From positions 1-64,000 of the forward strand of contig NZ_FOYM01000016.1 of assembly GCF_900115975.1 (NCBI RefSeq): a DNA stretch of 64,000 bases, written 5' to 3'. Position numbers and translations under genes: made by a program. Below, piece by piece: positions 12,947 through 55,562 of the stretch; the first letter of the stretch is position 1, and each line of letters begins with the position of its first letter. Origin of the DNA: Desulfoscipio geothermicus DSM 3669. Lineage in GTDB: Bacteria; Bacillota; Desulfotomaculia; Desulfotomaculales; Desulfallaceae. Below the pieces are notes generated by a model, which did not search any database, was not told where the DNA came from, and worked only from the letters and a program-made list of their open reading frames with translations.

Positions 12947-13337
12947 TATCACCGAGGCGGCAGAGCAGGATCTGGCCGAAATTGTTGATTATATCTCAAA
13001 CGACAACCCCGCTGCCGCGCTTAAACTGGCAGAAAATATCGAACAGAGCATTTTACAGCTTGAGGACTTCCCGCTGATCGGCGCAATACCGAAAAATCGA
13101 AGATTAACCCGGCAAGGATATCGTATTTTGATAGTCGATAGTTACTTGGTGTTTTACGTCTCCGATTTTACTTTTTTCATCATTGTTCAGCCTTTCAAGT
13201 TCAACCTTTCAACACCCGGCACCATGTTGACAAGCGGTAGTAAAAAAATTAATATATATGGTAGTTTAAAACAGGCTTTGAAAGGGAGGGCGTCCCGCCA
13301 AAAAGCGACCCAAGAGAGGGAATACCCGTGGCTGTAA
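12927..13337 (+). CDS. RelE/ParE-family toxin with a remodelled, probably inactive C-terminus
   Basis: The first about 85 residues (TEAAEQDLAEIVDYI, LEDFPLIGAIP, GYRILIVDSYLVFYV) are a good RelE/ParE domain. The normal family ending, a last beta strand and Arg/His-rich tail, is missing: after SDFTFFIIVQ the frame runs into a half-copy of repeat B (13207-13223), then into the promoter and Stem I of the valS T-box, ending at 13337. About 45 residues are thus non-homologous read-out. The toxin is probably damaged, while the antitoxin looks intact. It starts at ATG 12927 inside the antitoxin gene. Confidence 0.75.
   Translation: MPKHLISITEAAEQDLAEIVDYISNDNPAAALKLAENIEQSILQLEDFPLIGAIPKNRRLTRQGYRILIVDSYLVFYVSDFTFFIIVQPFKFNLSTPGTMLTSGSKKINIYGSLKQALKGRASRQKATQEREYPWL
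13207..13223 (-). repeat. Family B half-copy B3
   Basis: TTTCAACACCCGGCACC, one arm of the B palindrome (full copies at 48504-48564 and 58121-58178). It lies inside the open frame of the RelE-like toxin, at the point where homology to the family ends, and 4 nt before the -35 box of the valS leader promoter. Confidence 0.7.
13227..13255 (+). promoter_or_regulatory. Sigma-A-type promoter of the valS T-box leader
   Basis: TTGACA (13227-13232), a 17-nt spacer and TAATAT (13250-13255). A start point near 13262 would put the T-box Stem I at the 5' end of the transcript. It lies within the toxin open frame. Confidence 0.7.
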
Positions 13338-13534
13338 GGTATCCCGGTCGCTGCGGTCGCTGTCGCCCCGGAGCCGCCGGGTCGAAAGGTCGAGCGCTGA
13401 TTAGGCCCGCGCCGGGTTCAGCCCGCTATAGCTGACAAGAGCCGCGCGCAAGCCTGCGCATTTCTTCGCCTGCGCCGGAATTAAGGTGGTACCGCGAAGC
13501 CCTTTCGTCCTTAAATGAAAGGGCTTTTATATTT
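13262..13534 (+). ncRNA. T-box riboswitch, valine specifier, upstream of valS
   Basis: Stem I includes the AAGAGAGGG apical-side motif (13312-13320) and ends with GUC-G-CC at 13362-13367, giving a GUC (Val) specifier. The T-box core AAGGTGGTACCGCG is at 13483-13496, followed by a perfect 10-bp terminator stem (13497-13506 with 13517-13526) and a T-rich run. Uncharged tRNA-Val should stabilise the antiterminator and allow valS transcription. The specifier loop looks unusual: 3' of helix GCGACC/GGTCGC only U-GUC-G is left, without the GAA normally before the specifier. Confidence 0.9.
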
Positions 13535-13622: not shown

Positions 13623-13640
13623 GCTATGAGGAGGAAGAAG

Positions 13641-27682: not shown

Positions 27683-30520
27683 ATGAAACGAAAACTGGTT
27701 GAATATAAAATGAAATTCGTGCTGGGCGCGGTAATGCTGGTGCTGTTGGTGCTGCTGGCCAAAATATCCTACCTGCAGCTGGTGCAGACCGAAGAATACC
27801 GTACCATGGCCCGGAACAACTATATCCGTATTGTGCCGGTTTTTGCCCCGCGGGGGGAAATATTTGACCGGGACGGGGAAAAAATTGTCACTAACCGGCC
27901 TATTTACACCGTATCCATCAACGATTTGAACTTACAGGGCACCGCTTACCACCTCTACCTGGACCGTACCGGAGCCGACGCCGTGCGTATGGCCGATACT
28001 CTGGCCTGGATACTGGCCGGCGATGAGGAAGCGGTATTATATTTCGAGCAAATAAGTGACCAGGAGTTGGTGATTGGTGATAATTTCACCGAGGCTGAAG
28101 CCTATACGGTTAAAAAGAAATTTATCGAGGAAACTATCAAGGACCGCATAAGCGGCAACAAAGTCAAACTGGAAACAGGCAAACCCCTGGAAATAGCTGT
28201 GGCTTATCATCCAGAAACGGTCAAAACTTTGCGCCGGCAGGACCTGGCCTCCTTTGGCGTGAGGATGGAAAAGGAAACGGATGAACTGAGCAAGCTGGTG
28301 GCTATGCTGTTTGATGCGGGCGTATTTGAAGATGAAACCCCTTACGAGGTGGAATCACGGGTGCGGCAAAACATCCGGGACAAGAAATGGTACAGGCCCT
28401 ATGAGCCGGTGCTGGTGGCGGAAGATATTCCGCCCCAGATGGTGGTGGCATTGCGTGAAAAGCAAATGGACCTGCCCGGAGTGGTGGTTGATATCAAGCC
28501 TACCCGGGCCTATCCCCACAAAGAACTGCTCAGCCACGTACTGGGTTACGTGCAGAACATCAATGCCGAGCAGTACCGGGAGCATAAAGATGAAGGTTAT
28601 TTAATGAACGACCTGTTCGGGCAAAACGGCCTGGAAAAGGTTTATGAAAAATACCTGCGCGGCGAGCACGGCGCCCGGCAGGTGGAGGTGGACGCCAGCA
28701 GCCGCCCGGTGCGCGATTTGGGCATGAAGCAGCCGGTGCCCGGCAACGATCTGGTGCTGACTGTTGACCTGGAATTGCAAAAGGCGGCGGAACAGGCGCT
28801 GGCGGACGGGGTAAAACGGGCCCAGCAGGCGGGTTACGTTTATTCCAAGGGCGGTGCGGCGGTGGTGATGGATGTGAACACCGGGGCTGTCCTGGCCATG
28901 GCCAGTTACCCGGGGTTTGAGCCGCAGCTTTTTGAAGGGGGGCTGTCCGAAACTCAATACCGGGAGCTGCAGGAATCAAAGGCGCTGATGAACCGCGCCA
29001 TCACCGGCTTATATCCCCCGGGGTCAACATTTAAGATGGTGACGGCGGCGGCCATACTGGAAAATAAGGTCGTGGATCCCGAATATAAAATGCCCGACCC
29101 GGGTTATTTCATGTTAGGCAAAGGGCGTTTCCGGGACTGGAAGCCCGGCGGGCACGGTTCGGTTGACCTACGTGAGGCCCTGGAAGTTTCGTGTGACACA
29201 TATTTTTACAAATTCGGGCTGCAGGTCGGGGTAAATGCCATTGCCCATTACGCCCGGGAATTCGGGCTTGGGGAAAAAACCGGCATTAATTTGCCCGGGG
29301 AAATGGGCGGCGCGGTACCTACCCCGCAATACAAATATGATAAGGAAAAGTCTTTCCTGGTTTGGACGCATAAAGATTTTGCCCGGGTTCGCGAACTGAA
29401 TGAAGCAATTGATAATGCTGATACCGAAGAGCAAAAGCAGCAATTAAGGCGCTTGCGGGATAAAGAACTGGAAAAACAGCTGAAGAAATTCGAGTGGAAT
29501 TTGAACTGGCATGCCTACGATACGGTGAACATGTCCACCGGACAGGGTTACAATATGTACACGCCGCTGCAGTTGGCTGCATACGTAACGGCCATAGCCA
29601 ACGGGGGTATCCTGTATCGCCCTTACCTGGTGGATAAGATTGTTTCCCCGGACGGCAAGGTGGTTAAAGAATTCGCGCCCAAAGTCAGGCAAAAGGTGGA
29701 TATTAAACCGGATAACCTGCAGATTATCCGGGAAGGGATGCACATGGTGACCTTACCGCCGGCCGGCACCGCGGCTGCGGTTTTTGCCGGGGCCAAGTAT
29801 ACGGCGGCGGCTAAAACGGGTACAGCGGAAAACGAAAAGGGAGAAGGTAACGCCCACGCCCTGTTTGTGTCCTTCGCGCCCTATGAAAAACCCGAAGTGG
29901 CAGTGGCTGTGGTGTTGGAGTACGGCCATTCCGGCAGCGGTTACGCCGGACCCATTGCCCGGCAGATCCTGGACGCTTACTTTGCCGGGCAGGAACCGGT
30001 CGAACCCGGTGACGCGACGGCACAGAAACCGGGTGACGCCACGACCGGCGTGGAAACGCCGGACCGGGCGGAAACTGAACAGGCTGACAATCCGGTAGAT
30101 TGGGCGGCTATACCGTCTTTAAACTGGCCGGGCTGGGAGCCGGAACCCGGTCCCGAAACGACCGGCCCGGCATCCCGGCCGGCGATGCCGGGAGCCGGGG
30201 AACACGCGCAGCCGGCCTCGCCGGCACAAACCACAGTACGGCCCGAAGTGCCGGCCGGGCAGTCACGGCGGGTGGTTGTTCCTGCTGAGCGGCAACCTGC
30301 CCCTGCAACTGCTCCCGCGCCCGAGGCGGTACCCGGCCTACCGGTGCAGCAGTCTGAGCCGCAGCAAGCCCACCCGGCCCCGTCGATACCGGACCGGGTG
30401 CCGGAGCAGAACCTGCCGCCGCAAACGCCCGCACCGCTGCAGGGCGCGCAGGAACAACCGGCCCCGCCGCCGGCCGGGCCGGAAGAACAGGCGGAAAACC
30501 GGCAAAATATTGATGAGTAA
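27683..30520 (+). CDS. mrdA: Elongation-specific penicillin-binding protein 2 with long Pro-rich tail
   Basis: 945 residues, long for PBP2 (usually 600-750). A membrane helix (about 12-32) is followed by the dimerisation domain (VFAPRGEIFDRDG) and the transpeptidase domain with PPGSTFKM (SxxK), SCDTY and AAKTGTAEN (KTG). There is a helical insertion with LREL-type heptads around residues 555-600. From about residue 775 to the end is a low-complexity Pro/Ala/Glu/Gln extension with no recognised domain, probably outside the cell and possibly wall-spanning. It ends the mre operon; RodA is encoded 5 kb downstream. Confidence 0.95.
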   Translation: MKRKLVEYKMKFVLGAVMLVLLVLLAKISYLQLVQTEEYRTMARNNYIRIVPVFAPRGEIFDRDGEKIVTNRPIYTVSINDLNLQGTAYHLYLDRTGADAVRMADTLAWILAGDEEAVLYFEQISDQELVIGDNFTEAEAYTVKKKFIEETIKDRISGNKVKLETGKPLEIAVAYHPETVKTLRRQDLASFGVRMEKETDELSKLVAMLFDAGVFEDETPYEVESRVRQNIRDKKWYRPYEPVLVAEDIPPQMVVALREKQMDLPGVVVDIKPTRAYPHKELLSHVLGYVQNINAEQYREHKDEGYLMNDLFGQNGLEKVYEKYLRGEHGARQVEVDASSRPVRDLGMKQPVPGNDLVLTVDLELQKAAEQALADGVKRAQQAGYVYSKGGAAVVMDVNTGAVLAMASYPGFEPQLFEGGLSETQYRELQESKALMNRAITGLYPPGSTFKMVTAAAILENKVVDPEYKMPDPGYFMLGKGRFRDWKPGGHGSVDLREALEVSCDTYFYKFGLQVGVNAIAHYAREFGLGEKTGINLPGEMGGAVPTPQYKYDKEKSFLVWTHKDFARVRELNEAIDNADTEEQKQQLRRLRDKELEKQLKKFEWNLNWHAYDTVNMSTGQGYNMYTPLQLAAYVTAIANGGILYRPYLVDKIVSPDGKVVKEFAPKVRQKVDIKPDNLQIIREGMHMVTLPPAGTAAAVFAGAKYTAAAKTGTAENEKGEGNAHALFVSFAPYEKPEVAVAVVLEYGHSGSGYAGPIARQILDAYFAGQEPVEPGDATAQKPGDATTGVETPDRAETEQADNPVDWAAIPSLNWPGWEPEPGPETTGPASRPAMPGAGEHAQPASPAQTTVRPEVPAGQSRRVVVPAERQPAPATAPAPEAVPGLPVQQSEPQQAHPAPSIPDRVPEQNLPPQTPAPLQGAQEQPAPPPAGPEEQAENRQNIDE

Positions 30521-50762: not shown

Positions 50763-50791
50763 TTGACTTTATGGATTGAATATCTTATAAT
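50763..50791 (+). promoter_or_regulatory. Sigma-A promoter of the T-box/tRNA-Ala leader
   Basis: TTGACT (50763-50768), an exact 17-nt spacer and a consensus TATAAT (50786-50791). This strong promoter would transcribe the T-box leader and the tRNA inside it. Confidence 0.85.
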
Positions 50792-50797
50792 AAGGCT

Positions 50798-51125
50798 CAG
50801 GTTTAATAATGAAAAACATTGAAGGGGAGTAGTAATCCATAGCATTATCCCCAGAGAGCCGCCGGTTGGTGCGAGGCGGTGGGTAATGCGGGTGAACTCG
50901 CCCCGGAGTTGCCCGGGGGAAAGCTGTCAAGTACACCGGGCCGGTGCGTGCCGTTAGCACGTTGAGCGGTTAAAGTTATGGGGATGTAGCTCAGATGGGA
51001 GAGCGCCTGAATGGCATTCAGGAGGTCAGGGGTTCGATCCCCCTCATCTCCACCACATAACTTTATCAATTAGGGTGGTACCGCGAGTAAACCTCTCGTC
51101 CCTAAACAGGACAAGGGGTTTTTTG
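50798..51125 (+). ncRNA. T-box riboswitch, Leu (CUC) specifier, interrupted by a tRNA gene
   Basis: Stem I is canonical: GGGG (50824-50827) pairs with CCCC (50901-50904). The internal loop has AGUAGUA on one side and GAACUCG on the other, giving specifier CUC at 50897-50899. GCAUUA pairs with UAAUGC above it, then AGAGAGCCGCC and GGCGG. Further stems end at GAGCGGT (50964-50970). After the inserted tRNA, AGGGTGGTACCGCGAG (51072-51087) forms the antiterminator with CTCGTCCCT (51095-51103), and a terminator stem (51090-51120) with a T-run follows. The UGGU bulge (51076-51079) suits an ACCA tRNA end. Next gene: acyl-CoA synthetase. Confidence 0.9.
50980..51055 (+). tRNA. tRNA-Ala (anticodon GGC), embedded in a T-box leader
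   Basis: 76 nt with encoded CCA. Acceptor GGGGATG pairs with CATCTCC with one G-U; D arm GCTC-AGATGGGA-GAGC; anticodon stem CCTGA/TCAGG around ATGGCAT, anticodon GGC; T arm AGGGG-TTCGATC-CCCCT; end ACCA. All stems are intact, so it should be functional. It is flanked by TAAAGTTAT (50971-50979) and ATAACTTTA (51057-51065), exact reverse complements that extend the acceptor stem. No promoter of its own was found between Stem I and the tRNA. Confidence 0.97.
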
Positions 51126-51248
51126 TTTTCTAATATACCCGTGCCGCCGGCGCGGCAAAATCAGAAGGGTGATATGTTTTACTTTCAAGGCATTGTAGAT
51201 TCTATATTCTTTAATGCGTTAACTCGATAAAGGATTAGGGGTGACAAC

Positions 51249-52913
51249 ATGATTAAAAATTGGGACCAGATAACCATCGGGGACTTGCTGGACCGGGCGG
51301 CGGGCCGTTACCCGCACAATGAAGCCTTGGTTTACCCGGACCGGAATCTCAGGTATACATACCGGCAGTTTCAACAGAAATGCAACCGGGTGGCCAAAGG
51401 GTTAATGGCTTTGGGGATCAAACGGGGCGAGCATATCGCCATCCTGGCGCCCAATGTGCCGGAGTGGGTGATTTGCCAGTTTGCCAGCGCTAAAATGGGC
51501 GCTGTCCTTACAACGGTCAATACCAATTACAAATTATTTGAGTTGGAGTACCTGCTTCGCCAGTCCGATGCCACCACCTTGATTTTTACCGGCGGGACCA
51601 AAGAAACTAACTATATAAATATGGTATATGAACTTTGCCCGGAACTTTATGACAGCATGCCCGGCCGGTTAAACAGCAAAAAGCTGCCCATGCTGAAAAA
51701 TCTGATATTTATCGGCGAAGAATCAATGCCGGGAATGTTTACCTGGGAACAAATGCTGGCCCTGGGTGAGAGAATTTCCGGCGAGGAACTGATAGCCCGG
51801 CAGCTTTCCCTGGAGCCGGACGATGTGGCCAACATGCAGTATACCTCGGGTACCACCGGCTTCCCCAAGGGAGTTATGCTTACGCACCGCAACCTGGTGG
51901 GGAATGCTTTGGGTATAGGCAAGTGCATGAATTTCAGTCCCGACGACCGCCTGTGTATCCCGGTGCCGCTGTTCCATTGCTTCGGTTGTGTGCTGGGCAC
52001 TTTGTCCTGTGTTTCTTATGCGTCCACCATGGTAGTGCTGGAAACATTCAACCCGGTCAAGGTTCTGGAAGCGGTGGAGAAAGAGCGGTGTACCGCGCTG
52101 CACGGGGTGCCTACCATGTTTATCACCGAGCTGGAGGTGCTGGAAAATCAGCCCTATGACACTTCTTCCCTGCGCACCGGCATTATGGCCGGAGCGCCGT
52201 GCCCCATTGAAGTGATGCGGGCCGTGGTGGAGAAAATGGGCATGCGTGAAATAGTGATCACTTACGGCCAGACCGAAGCCGCACCGGGCATTACCATGAC
52301 CAAGACGGATGACCCGCTGGAAGTGAGGGTGGCCACGGTGGGTAAAGCTCTGGACGGGGTGGAGGTCAAAGTAGTGGACCCGGCCAGCGGAGAAGAACTG
52401 CCCCCGGGCCGCCAGGGAGAAATATGCGCCCGCGGTTACAACGTAATGAAGGGGTATTACAAAATGCCCGAAGCGACCGCTGCCGCCATTGACAAGGACG
52501 GCTGGCTGCACACAGGTGACCTGGGAATCATGGATGAAAAAGGTTACCTGCGCATTACCGGCAGGATCAAGGATATGATCATCCGGGGCGGGGAGAACAT
52601 TTATCCCCGGGAAATTGAAGAATTCCTCTATACCCACCCGCAGATCAAAGATGTGCAGGTGGTTGGCGTGCCAAGCAAGAAGTACGGGGAAGAAGTGATG
52701 GCCTTTATCCAGTTAAAAGAGGGGGCCGGGGTAACCGATGAGGATGTCAAGAATTATTGCGCGGGTAAGATAGCCCGGTATAAAATTCCCTCGTACATCC
52801 AATTTGTAGATAGTTACCCCACCACCGCCAACGGCAAAGTGCAAAAATTCAAGCTGCGGGAAATGGGTATCAAAAGAATATCCAAAGGGGATGGGACAGC
52901 GGGGATAGTTTAA
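51249..52913 (+). CDS. AMP-forming acyl-CoA synthetase
   Basis: 554 residues of the ANL superfamily: P-loop-like YTSGTTGFPKGVMLTHRN near residue 200, ITYGQTEAAPG, GWLHTGDLGIMDEKGYLRITGRIKD and the C-terminal catalytic Lys in TTANGKVQKFKLR. It resembles medium- or long-chain and other fatty acyl-CoA synthetases; the acid is not predictable. It lies just behind the Leu-type T-box, which may make its expression respond to leucyl-tRNA charging; a branched-chain acid substrate would fit but is speculation. ATG 51249; the ribosome site (TTAGGGGTGA) is moderate. Confidence 0.93.
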   Translation: MIKNWDQITIGDLLDRAAGRYPHNEALVYPDRNLRYTYRQFQQKCNRVAKGLMALGIKRGEHIAILAPNVPEWVICQFASAKMGAVLTTVNTNYKLFELEYLLRQSDATTLIFTGGTKETNYINMVYELCPELYDSMPGRLNSKKLPMLKNLIFIGEESMPGMFTWEQMLALGERISGEELIARQLSLEPDDVANMQYTSGTTGFPKGVMLTHRNLVGNALGIGKCMNFSPDDRLCIPVPLFHCFGCVLGTLSCVSYASTMVVLETFNPVKVLEAVEKERCTALHGVPTMFITELEVLENQPYDTSSLRTGIMAGAPCPIEVMRAVVEKMGMREIVITYGQTEAAPGITMTKTDDPLEVRVATVGKALDGVEVKVVDPASGEELPPGRQGEICARGYNVMKGYYKMPEATAAAIDKDGWLHTGDLGIMDEKGYLRITGRIKDMIIRGGENIYPREIEEFLYTHPQIKDVQVVGVPSKKYGEEVMAFIQLKEGAGVTDEDVKNYCAGKIARYKIPSYIQFVDSYPTTANGKVQKFKLREMGIKRISKGDGTAGIV

Positions 52914-53078: not shown

Positions 53079-55562
53079 ATGAAGGACCGTTATGATTTTA
53101 AGGAAATAGAAGCCAAGTGGCAACAAAAGTGGGCTGAACAGGATATTTACGCTGTTCCTGATTTCAGCGACCGGCCCAAGTATTACTGCCTGGAGATGTT
53201 CCCCTACCCCTCGGGAAAACTGCACATGGGGCACGTGCGCAATTATTCCATTGGCGACGTGGTGGCCCGTTATAAAACCATGCAGGGTTTCAATGTGCTG
53301 CACCCCATGGGGTGGGACGCCTTCGGCCTGCCGGCGGAAAACGCGGCCATCAAGCACGGGGCGCTGCACCCGGCCCAGTGGACCAAGGACAATATAGACG
53401 CCATGCGCGCGCAGTTGAAACAGCTGGGCATCAGTTACGACTGGAACCGGGAGGTGGCCACCTGTCATCCCGGTTACTACAAGTGGACCCAGTGGTTGTT
53501 CCTGCAGTTGTATCACAAAGGGCTGGCTTACAAAAAGAAAGCGGCCGTCAACTGGTGTCCTTCCTGCGCTACTGTACTGGCCAACGAGCAGGTCAAGGAG
53601 GGTATATGCGAGCGCTGCGCCAGTGATGTGGAGAAAAGGGAACTGGAACAGTGGTTCTTTAAGATCACCGACTACGCCGACCGGCTGCTGGCCGACCTGG
53701 ACAAGTTGCAGGGATGGCCGGACAAGGTCAAGATCATGCAGGAGAACTGGATCGGGCGCAGCGAAGGCGCTGAGATTACTTTTACCATAGACGGGTTTGA
53801 TGAAACCATCACGGTTTTCACCACCCGGCCGGATACGATATACGGTGTCACTTACATGGTGCTGGCGCCGGAGCATCCGCTGGTGGAAAAACTGATCGCG
53901 GGCCGGCCCCAGGCTGAACAAGTTAAAGAATTTGTAGCCCGGGTACGCAACCAGAGCGAGCTGGCCCGCACCTCCACCGAGACGGAGAAAATCGGCCTGC
54001 CAACCGGCGCTTACTGTGTCAACCCGCTGAGCGGGGAAAAGGTGCCCATCCTGGTGGCCAACTACGTGCTTTTGGAGTACGGCACCGGCGCGGTGATGGG
54101 CGTGCCGGCGCACGACCAGCGTGACTTTGAATTCGCCCGTAAATACAACCTGCCCATCCGGGTGGTTATTCAGCCCGAGGGTGCGGAACTGGAACCGGAT
54201 TCCATGACCGAGGCGTACGACGGCGAGGGCTTGATGGTCAATTCCGGGCCCTTTGACGGCACTCCCAACCGGGAAGGCATTGCCGCCGTCACCCGTTACC
54301 TGGAGGAAAGGGGTCTGGGCAAAGGCCGCGTTAATTACCGCCTGCGGGACTGGCTTATTTCCCGGCAGCGTTACTGGGGTGCACCCATCCCCATAATTTA
54401 CTGTGACCGGTGCGGCGTGGTGCCGGTGCCCGAAGAGGATTTGCCCGTCATGCTGCCCATGGATGTGGCCTTCAAGCCCACCGGTCGTTCACCGCTGGAG
54501 GAACACCGGGACTTTGTCAATACCGCCTGCCCGTCCTGCGGCGGTCCGGCCCGCCGGGAAACGGACACCATGGACACCTTCATGTGTTCATCATGGTATT
54601 ACTACCGGTACACCAGCCCGCGGGACGAAGACAACGCCTGGGACCCGGACAAAGTCCGCCGGTGGCTGCCGGTGGACCAGTACATCGGCGGCGTGGAGCA
54701 CGCCATATTGCACCTGCTGTACAGCCGGTTCTTTACCAAGGTGCTGTGCGACCTGAAACTGGTGGATAACGACGAGCCCTTTACCAACCTGCTCACCCAG
54801 GGCATGGTGCTCAAGGACGGGGCTAAAATGAGCAAGTCCAAAGGCAATGTAGTGAGCCCGGAAGATATTGTGGCCGCCTACGGGGCCGATACCGCCCGGC
54901 TGTTCATTCTGTTTGCTTCGCCGCCCGAGCGGGACCTGGAATGGAGCGACCAGGGCGTGGAGGGCTGTTACCGCTTCCTGAACCGGGTCTGGCGGTTGGT
55001 GGCGCCGCTGGGCGATACGCCGGCGGGCGCGCCATTGCCCGGGAACGCCAAGCTGGCCGGGGTTAACAAGGACATGCGCCGGGTGACCCACCAGGCTATC
55101 AAGAAGGTTACCGAGGATGTGGGCAACCGGTTCAACTTCAATACGGCGGTCAGCGCCATCATGGAACTGGTCAACGCCATGTACCAGTACCGGGAAGTGC
55201 CCGAATGCGACCGCGACGCCGGGGTATTGCGCGAGGCGGTGGATGCGCTGCTGCTGTTGCTGGCTCCCTTTGCTCCGCATATCACCGAGGAATTATGGGC
55301 TGTTACGGGTCACGAGGGCAGCATCCACGCCATGCCGTGGCCGGCTTACGACCCGGAGGCCATTGTAGAGGACGAAATTACCATCGTGGTGCAGATCAAC
55401 GGCAAGGTACGGGACCGCATGCTGGTGCCGGCCGGCATGGAGCCGGATGCCATGCAGGAGCTGGTGATGCAGCAGGAGCGGGTTCAGCAATTGATTGGGG
55501 ACAAAAAAGTTCTTAAGGTGATTCCCGTGCCCGGTAAGCTGGTAAATATTGTAGTAAAATAA
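53079..55562 (+). CDS. leuS: Leucyl-tRNA synthetase
   Basis: 827 residues. HIGH motif [16 protein letters not shown] near residue 45, editing domain with [24 protein letters not shown] loop [16 protein letters not shown], and C-terminal domain ending [14 protein letters not shown]. Class I synthetase charging tRNA-Leu. ATG follows GGGAGGATGCC. No T-box of its own is visible in the 165-bp gap; the nearest is the Leu-specifier T-box before the acyl-CoA synthetase gene. Confidence 0.97.

Follow-up and report, generated by a model that had tools for sequence, protein, structure and literature searches.

The locus analyzed here raises the question of how one leader transcript can hold two RNAs, one regulatory and one structural, when the second is encoded inside the first, and what such a leader may deliver to the cell. 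It is part of a 64,000-nucleotide stretch from Desulfoscipio geothermicus DSM 3669 (contig NZ_FOYM01000016.1, positions 1 to 64,000), which as a whole is called the window. A sequence-only reading had assigned a Stem I and an antiterminator/terminator, with a tRNA gene lying between them, to one T-box. This assignment was borne out when an insertion was allowed, as the T-box model RF00230 matched end to end at 50810-51106 on the + strand with 134.7 bits (cut-off of 93 bits) and with the model complete from position 1 to 219. The insert relative to the model is 82 nt long and located in Stem III in the Rfam alignment of the window. The intact tRNA-Ala(GGC) with CCA that the same reading had placed at 50980-51055 (+ strand) was found by ARAGORN at these positions and by RF00005 at 50980-51052 (65.2 bits). 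The cloverleaf and the anticodon at 51013-51015 in both searches, a G3:U70 pair, A73, and the CCA at 51053-51055 identify the gene as tRNA-Ala(GGC). With its encoded CCA, it forms the apical loop of Stem III of the T-box.

All other elements of the leader are also located on the + strand. A promoter (TTGACT-17-TATAAT, 11 of 12 consensus positions) at 50763-50791 is followed by Stem I at 50816-50909, in which the RF00230 alignment indicated the loop E strand, the AGAGAG/GGUUGGUG distal loops, and the specifier loop. Stem II (50911-50941) and the Stem IIA/B region (50942-50956) were likewise taken from the Rfam alignment. The purine motif RRRxG that precedes Stem III (motif as in PMC7583486) takes the form GAGCG at 50964-50968, and next to it the 5' arm of Stem III, GTTAAAGTTAT at 50969-50979, ends at base 1 of the tRNA. 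This arm pairs and covaries with the 3' arm at 51057-51067, behind which the AA motif is positioned at 51068-51069. The antiterminator, with the T-box bulge UGGU at 51076-51079, occupies 51072-51103 in the Rfam alignment, and an intrinsic terminator at 51090-51124, composed of a hairpin followed by TTTTTT in a fold of 50960-51130, overlaps its 3' half. The hairpin at 51090-51120 together with the U-run was predicted to contribute -13.4 kcal/mol, and a simple terminator scan of the window did not pick it up. The overlap of antiterminator and terminator, the succession of RRRxG, Stem III and AA, a UGGN bulge, and the full match to the covariance model place the element among the T-boxes.

The genome to which the window belongs yielded 12 T-box matches, the longest being this leucine T-box with 297 nt, compared with 218 to 276 nt for the rest. 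A weaker T-box with its own terminator is present at 13269-13515 of the window (53.4 bits, below the Rfam cut-off), and an ORF at 13626, just after it, resembles a class I synthetase, probably valS. A tRNA-Cys(GCA) called by ARAGORN at 30391-30474 on the − strand, with 78.6% GC, poor pairing, and no Rfam support, is very likely a false call within GC-rich sequence.

In a T-box, the specifier is the triplet between the GAA of the specifier loop and a purine. At this canonical position, the window carries the leucine triplet CUC (50897-50899, + strand, within GAA-CUC-G), and CUC is kept across the related loci described below: it was recognized by pattern in 93 distinct loci and by eye in 3 more of a total of 98, and the loci without it are a truncated one and another, L225, that apparently has no Stem I. 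The triplet 3' of CUC is variable (GCC in 69 cases, GTC in 15, ACC and GCT in 3 each, ATC in 2, and GTT in 1). Because CUC is constant while the next triplet varies, the specifier is one for leucine and not for alanine. The genome encodes a tRNA-Leu(GAG) ending with ACCA, which matches the UGGU bulge. Downstream of the leader, the operon starts in the window's lineage with a gene for an acyl-CoA synthetase of the AMP-binding type at 51249-52913 (+ strand; PF00501, 339.5 bits), the product of which had NF009233 as its top match, yet under the cut-off of that model. The operon continues with leuS for leucine--tRNA ligase at 53079-55562 (+ strand; TIGR00396, 1150.5 bits; cut-off of 548.4 bits), and no promoter-like or terminator-like site was found on the + strand between both genes. 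The amino acid of the specifier agrees with leuS as the operon gene and with the genomic tRNA-Leu(GAG). At nearly all distant nested loci, leuS starts downstream at a distance of a few hundred bases or less, and most genomes of the window's lineage have the acyl-CoA synthetase gene interposed between the leucine T-box and leuS; given this position, the gene should come under leucine control as well. As judged from CUC and leuS, the nested tRNA-Ala is not the ligand of the T-box. The leucine specifier CUC, the position of the tRNA in the loop of Stem III, and the operon leading to leuS are additions to the sequence-only reading.

Whether the arrangement is a peculiarity of one genome was answered by its distribution. 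The initial scan used one genome per species and looked for a tRNA T-loop 15 to 45 nt before a T-box motif, with any anticodon allowed. The scan and the relatives gave at least 65 loci with a tRNA recognized by ARAGORN, each of them a tRNA-Ala(GGC). After further searches, the number of nested loci rose to at least 127, of which 98 were distinct; the tRNA was tRNA-Ala(GGC) with G3:U70 in all 98 and ended with ACCA in 88 of them. Matches to the pattern were obtained in 85 of 398 genomes sampled from the window's phylum, 84 of which were real when inspected by eye (the single match that was not a tRNA came from G186), and a reversed control pattern gave no match in the same 398 genomes. Because 85 genomes matched and the control gave none, the nesting is not due to chance. 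Close relatives, the search of which the sequence-only reading had proposed, possess the same nesting: 13 of the 15 good genomes in the family carry it, as do about 55 of the 267 sampled genera of the phylum. Carriers belong to several classes of the Bacillota and to the Thermomicrobiota, Chloroflexota, Armatimonadota, Coprothermobacterota, and Caldisericota; lone bins labelled Actinomycetota and Pseudomonadota carry it too and may be misbinned. In a tree of leuS from nested loci only, a mostly Bacillota clade (support 99/99) stood apart from a group of Thermomicrobiota, Chloroflexota, and Armatimonadota (95/92); some rows were misplaced. On these comparative grounds, the nesting is a genuine, old, and widely distributed architecture and no oddity of one genome, its age being due to descent or to early transfer, between which the leuS tree does not choose.

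A tRNA inside a leader could still be served by a promoter of its own. The single good promoter at 50763-50791 that had been proposed for the whole unit was the only strong promoter-like site on the + strand between 50650 and 51300, and no such site was found in this region between Stem I and the tRNA. The unit of one T-box, an enclosed complete tRNA, and a single upstream promoter holds in the window and in the 98 distinct loci. Among 93 nested loci with enough upstream DNA, 85 had a promoter-like site 140 to 330 nt upstream of the tRNA (12.3 expected), with a peak at about 180 to 200 nt before it. A site nearer to the tRNA was present in 6 of the 93 (2.5 expected), three of them, L060, L095, and L101, having unusually short leaders and a fourth being L225. 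A separate tRNA promoter was thus rejected for the window, and the few candidates in relatives are mostly found at loci with a shortened leader. Because the tRNA precedes the terminator, its transcription should be independent of the switch; the earlier expectation that the tRNA is made with or without read-through follows from this gene order. When the tRNAs of the window genome were gathered by an RF00005 search and the fetching of regions, no tRNA-Ala(GGC) other than the nested copy was found, and 26 of 28 strictly nested genomes of the order had no second match to the tRNA-Ala(GGC) pattern. Its being the sole genomic copy suggests that the nested tRNA-Ala(GGC) may be expressed, processed, and charged.

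Stem III has recently been recognized as belonging to the discriminator, which senses aminoacylation, and is flanked by the RRRxG and AA motifs (PMC7583486; TBDB, PMC7778990). Both motifs were kept around the nested tRNA in 88 of the 98 distinct loci, AA alone in 91. The mean energy of the duplex between the arms of Stem III was -7.7 kcal/mol, compared with -3.6 kcal/mol (standard deviation, 0.24) when arms were swapped between loci, and 84% of the cells at Stem III positions 1 to 7 were paired, compared with 69% in shuffles; the relatedness of the loci inflates both contrasts, and the swapped arms keep their composition. Two-sided pair changes occurred at positions 1 to 9, with several pair types per position. 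For the nine inner pairs of Stem III in the window, the probabilities were between 0.77 and 0.99. The minimum-energy fold of the window leader contained Stem III and not the acceptor stem of the tRNA, which energy folding predicted to form in 73 of the 98 distinct loci. Minimum-energy folding is unreliable as proof of the cloverleaf here, and the tRNA was assigned from its covariance-model match and its identity elements.

Natural variants exist in which one of the two parts is decayed or apparently lost. Two relatives, G005 and G008 (loci L267 and L266), still have a leuS T-box that scores about 105.8 bits, above the Rfam cut-off, and their insert is a remnant of the tRNA with the halves of the acceptor stem retained and the anticodon arm missing. 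Their sister genome G012 contains an intact nested tRNA, and no tRNA-Ala(GGC) was present among the 44 tRNAs found in G008. Judged from these remnants, the T-box fold does not need the tRNA. At L225 (G441), the tRNA, antiterminator, terminator, and leuS were kept, Stem I was apparently lost, and a strong promoter is situated 64 nt before the tRNA; as a single draft genome, it carries little evidential weight. Together, these variants suggest that the tRNA and T-box modules may be maintained independently of each other in spite of their common RNA. Two quite different body types of tRNA-Ala(GGC) were seen within one family (L142, L145, and L151 versus L001 and L133), which suggests replacement or gene conversion inside the T-box.

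These data can be combined into a model for the function of the leader. It is likely that the leader has a dual output, with a leucine T-box gating leuS and the nested tRNA-Ala made regardless of its decision; a single transcript appears to act both as the source of a tRNA and as the regulator of an enzyme gene. The architecture, the specifier, the single promoter, the sole gene copy, the conservation, and the covariation come from sequence and comparison; that the leader is transcribed, that tRNA-Leu operates the switch, and when and where processing takes place are what we infer for this reading. The single promoter would give rise to a leucine-specific T-box transcript in which a working tRNA-Ala(GGC) gene closes Stem III. 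Uncharged tRNA-Leu(GAG), bound to Stem I via CUC and to the UGGU bulge, would lead to read-through into the operon that ends with leuS, and charged tRNA-Leu to termination at 51090-51124. Each initiation event passing the tRNA would yield one tRNA-Ala precursor in either state of the switch, so that terminated leaders, which are waste elsewhere, may serve as a source of tRNA. Once the decision has been made, RNase P and 3' nucleases would separate Stem I from the mRNA. Severing of the leader by RNase P and a decision that would fall during transcription or before processing, both put forward in the sequence-only reading, are soundly argued predictions. Cutting by RNase P before the terminator is reached would stop the action of Stem I, which counts against a dual output, as does the lack of the tRNA acceptor stem in the minimum-energy fold of the window leader. 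That the nesting has been maintained between such distant lineages likewise points to something beyond passive cohabitation.

A rival possibility is that cleavage of the nested tRNA is itself part of the regulation. Stem III would delay RNase P until the decision has been made; excision would then end sensing, free tRNA-Leu, and leave a leuS mRNA with a processed 5' end. We regard this as unlikely, in spite of the deep conservation of the nesting and the position of Stem III in the discriminator (PMC7583486), which excision should dismantle. Stem III also lengthens the acceptor region of the pre-tRNA, and leader pairing with RCCA slows the RNase P of E. coli, which cleaves best behind a leader AU and worst behind GG (PMC9433436); Stem III, however, pairs beyond the CCA and not with it. 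The bases at positions -2 and -1 before the nested tRNA were AU or GU in 77 of the 98 distinct loci, which leaves selection for slow cleavage via GG unsupported. With AU and GU dominant, the tRNA seems open to cleavage and not shielded from it, as far as these two bases are concerned. The T-box, moreover, was kept in the relatives with a decayed tRNA. The broader proposition of an ancient T-box class with a tRNA gene built into its sensing domain, in which excision would serve as an irreversible clock, closing the sensing phase and remodelling the leuS mRNA, appears to us unlikely as well.

A role of the tRNA as a structural or decoy part of the switch, its fold supporting Stem III or its internal ACCA competing for the UGGU bulge, is very unlikely. 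The tRNA does cap Stem III, the pairing of which is retained, and ACCA is complementary to UGGU, but the T-boxes of G005 and G008 score above the Rfam cut-off without a tRNA fold, the remaining T-boxes of the same genomes are of ordinary length, and the tRNA body was apparently exchanged for another tRNA-Ala type in one family, always with the full identity elements. That the T-box might read GCC and respond to its own tRNA-Ala is highly improbable: GCC follows CUC in 69 of 93 loci and could pair with the anticodon GGC, yet it is located one triplet beyond the canonical specifier position and is variable, in contrast to the constant CUC, and the regulated gene is leuS, not alaS. An alanine T-box of this kind was rejected on the position and the conservation of GCC. 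It is hardly credible, finally, that a chance insertion, an assembly artefact, or a functionless decayed tRNA is responsible. The remnants in two relatives demonstrate that the gene can be lost, but the nesting is present throughout most of the family and in about one-fifth of the sampled genera of the phylum, the identity elements are intact in 98 of 98 loci, and the nested gene is the sole GGC gene.

The proposed dual-output leader has to be compared with known systems. Genes for tRNAs are found inside mRNA or rRNA operons, for instance in the 16S-23S spacer, and these tRNAs are excised from a longer transcript. Such operon tRNAs sit between structural units, whereas the nested tRNA interrupts a ligand-sensing domain that would have to act before excision. 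The element resembles a transcriptional leuS T-box (RF00230) from Stem I, CUC, Stem II, and IIA/B through RRRxG-Stem III-AA, antiterminator, and terminator to leuS, and differs from an ordinary one in the apical loop of Stem III, where a complete tRNA-Ala gene takes the place of a short loop. Insertions of unknown function into the discriminator have been reviewed, mainly for translational T-boxes (PMC7583486); they also add sequence to Stem III or helix A2, but the insert here is a tRNA gene that should have a product of its own. The alaS T-box of Clostridium acetobutylicum likewise involves tRNA-Ala, there as a ligand in trans (PMC4695836) and here encoded in cis and not as the ligand. The sequence-only reading knew of no described system with such an architecture, and no description of a tRNA nested in a T-box was found in the open-access literature; subscription papers on comparative T-box analysis may mention it. 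What is new here is a leucine T-box of a known kind with a tRNA gene capping Stem III.

The biological meaning of this arrangement is that a structural and a regulatory RNA are combined in one molecule, with the structural RNA inside the domain that senses aminoacylation. The nesting allows a direct comparison of the decision time of a riboswitch with the processing time of a tRNA, and a natural series, with the tRNA nested, the tRNA decayed, or possibly the sensor lost, is available for the study of two RNA genes sharing a transcript. If true, the reading of excision as a clock would tie the maturation of a tRNA to the control of a synthetase. In many genomes, the nested copy is apparently the only source of tRNA-Ala(GGC), and a deletion of the leuS leader there would remove this tRNA.
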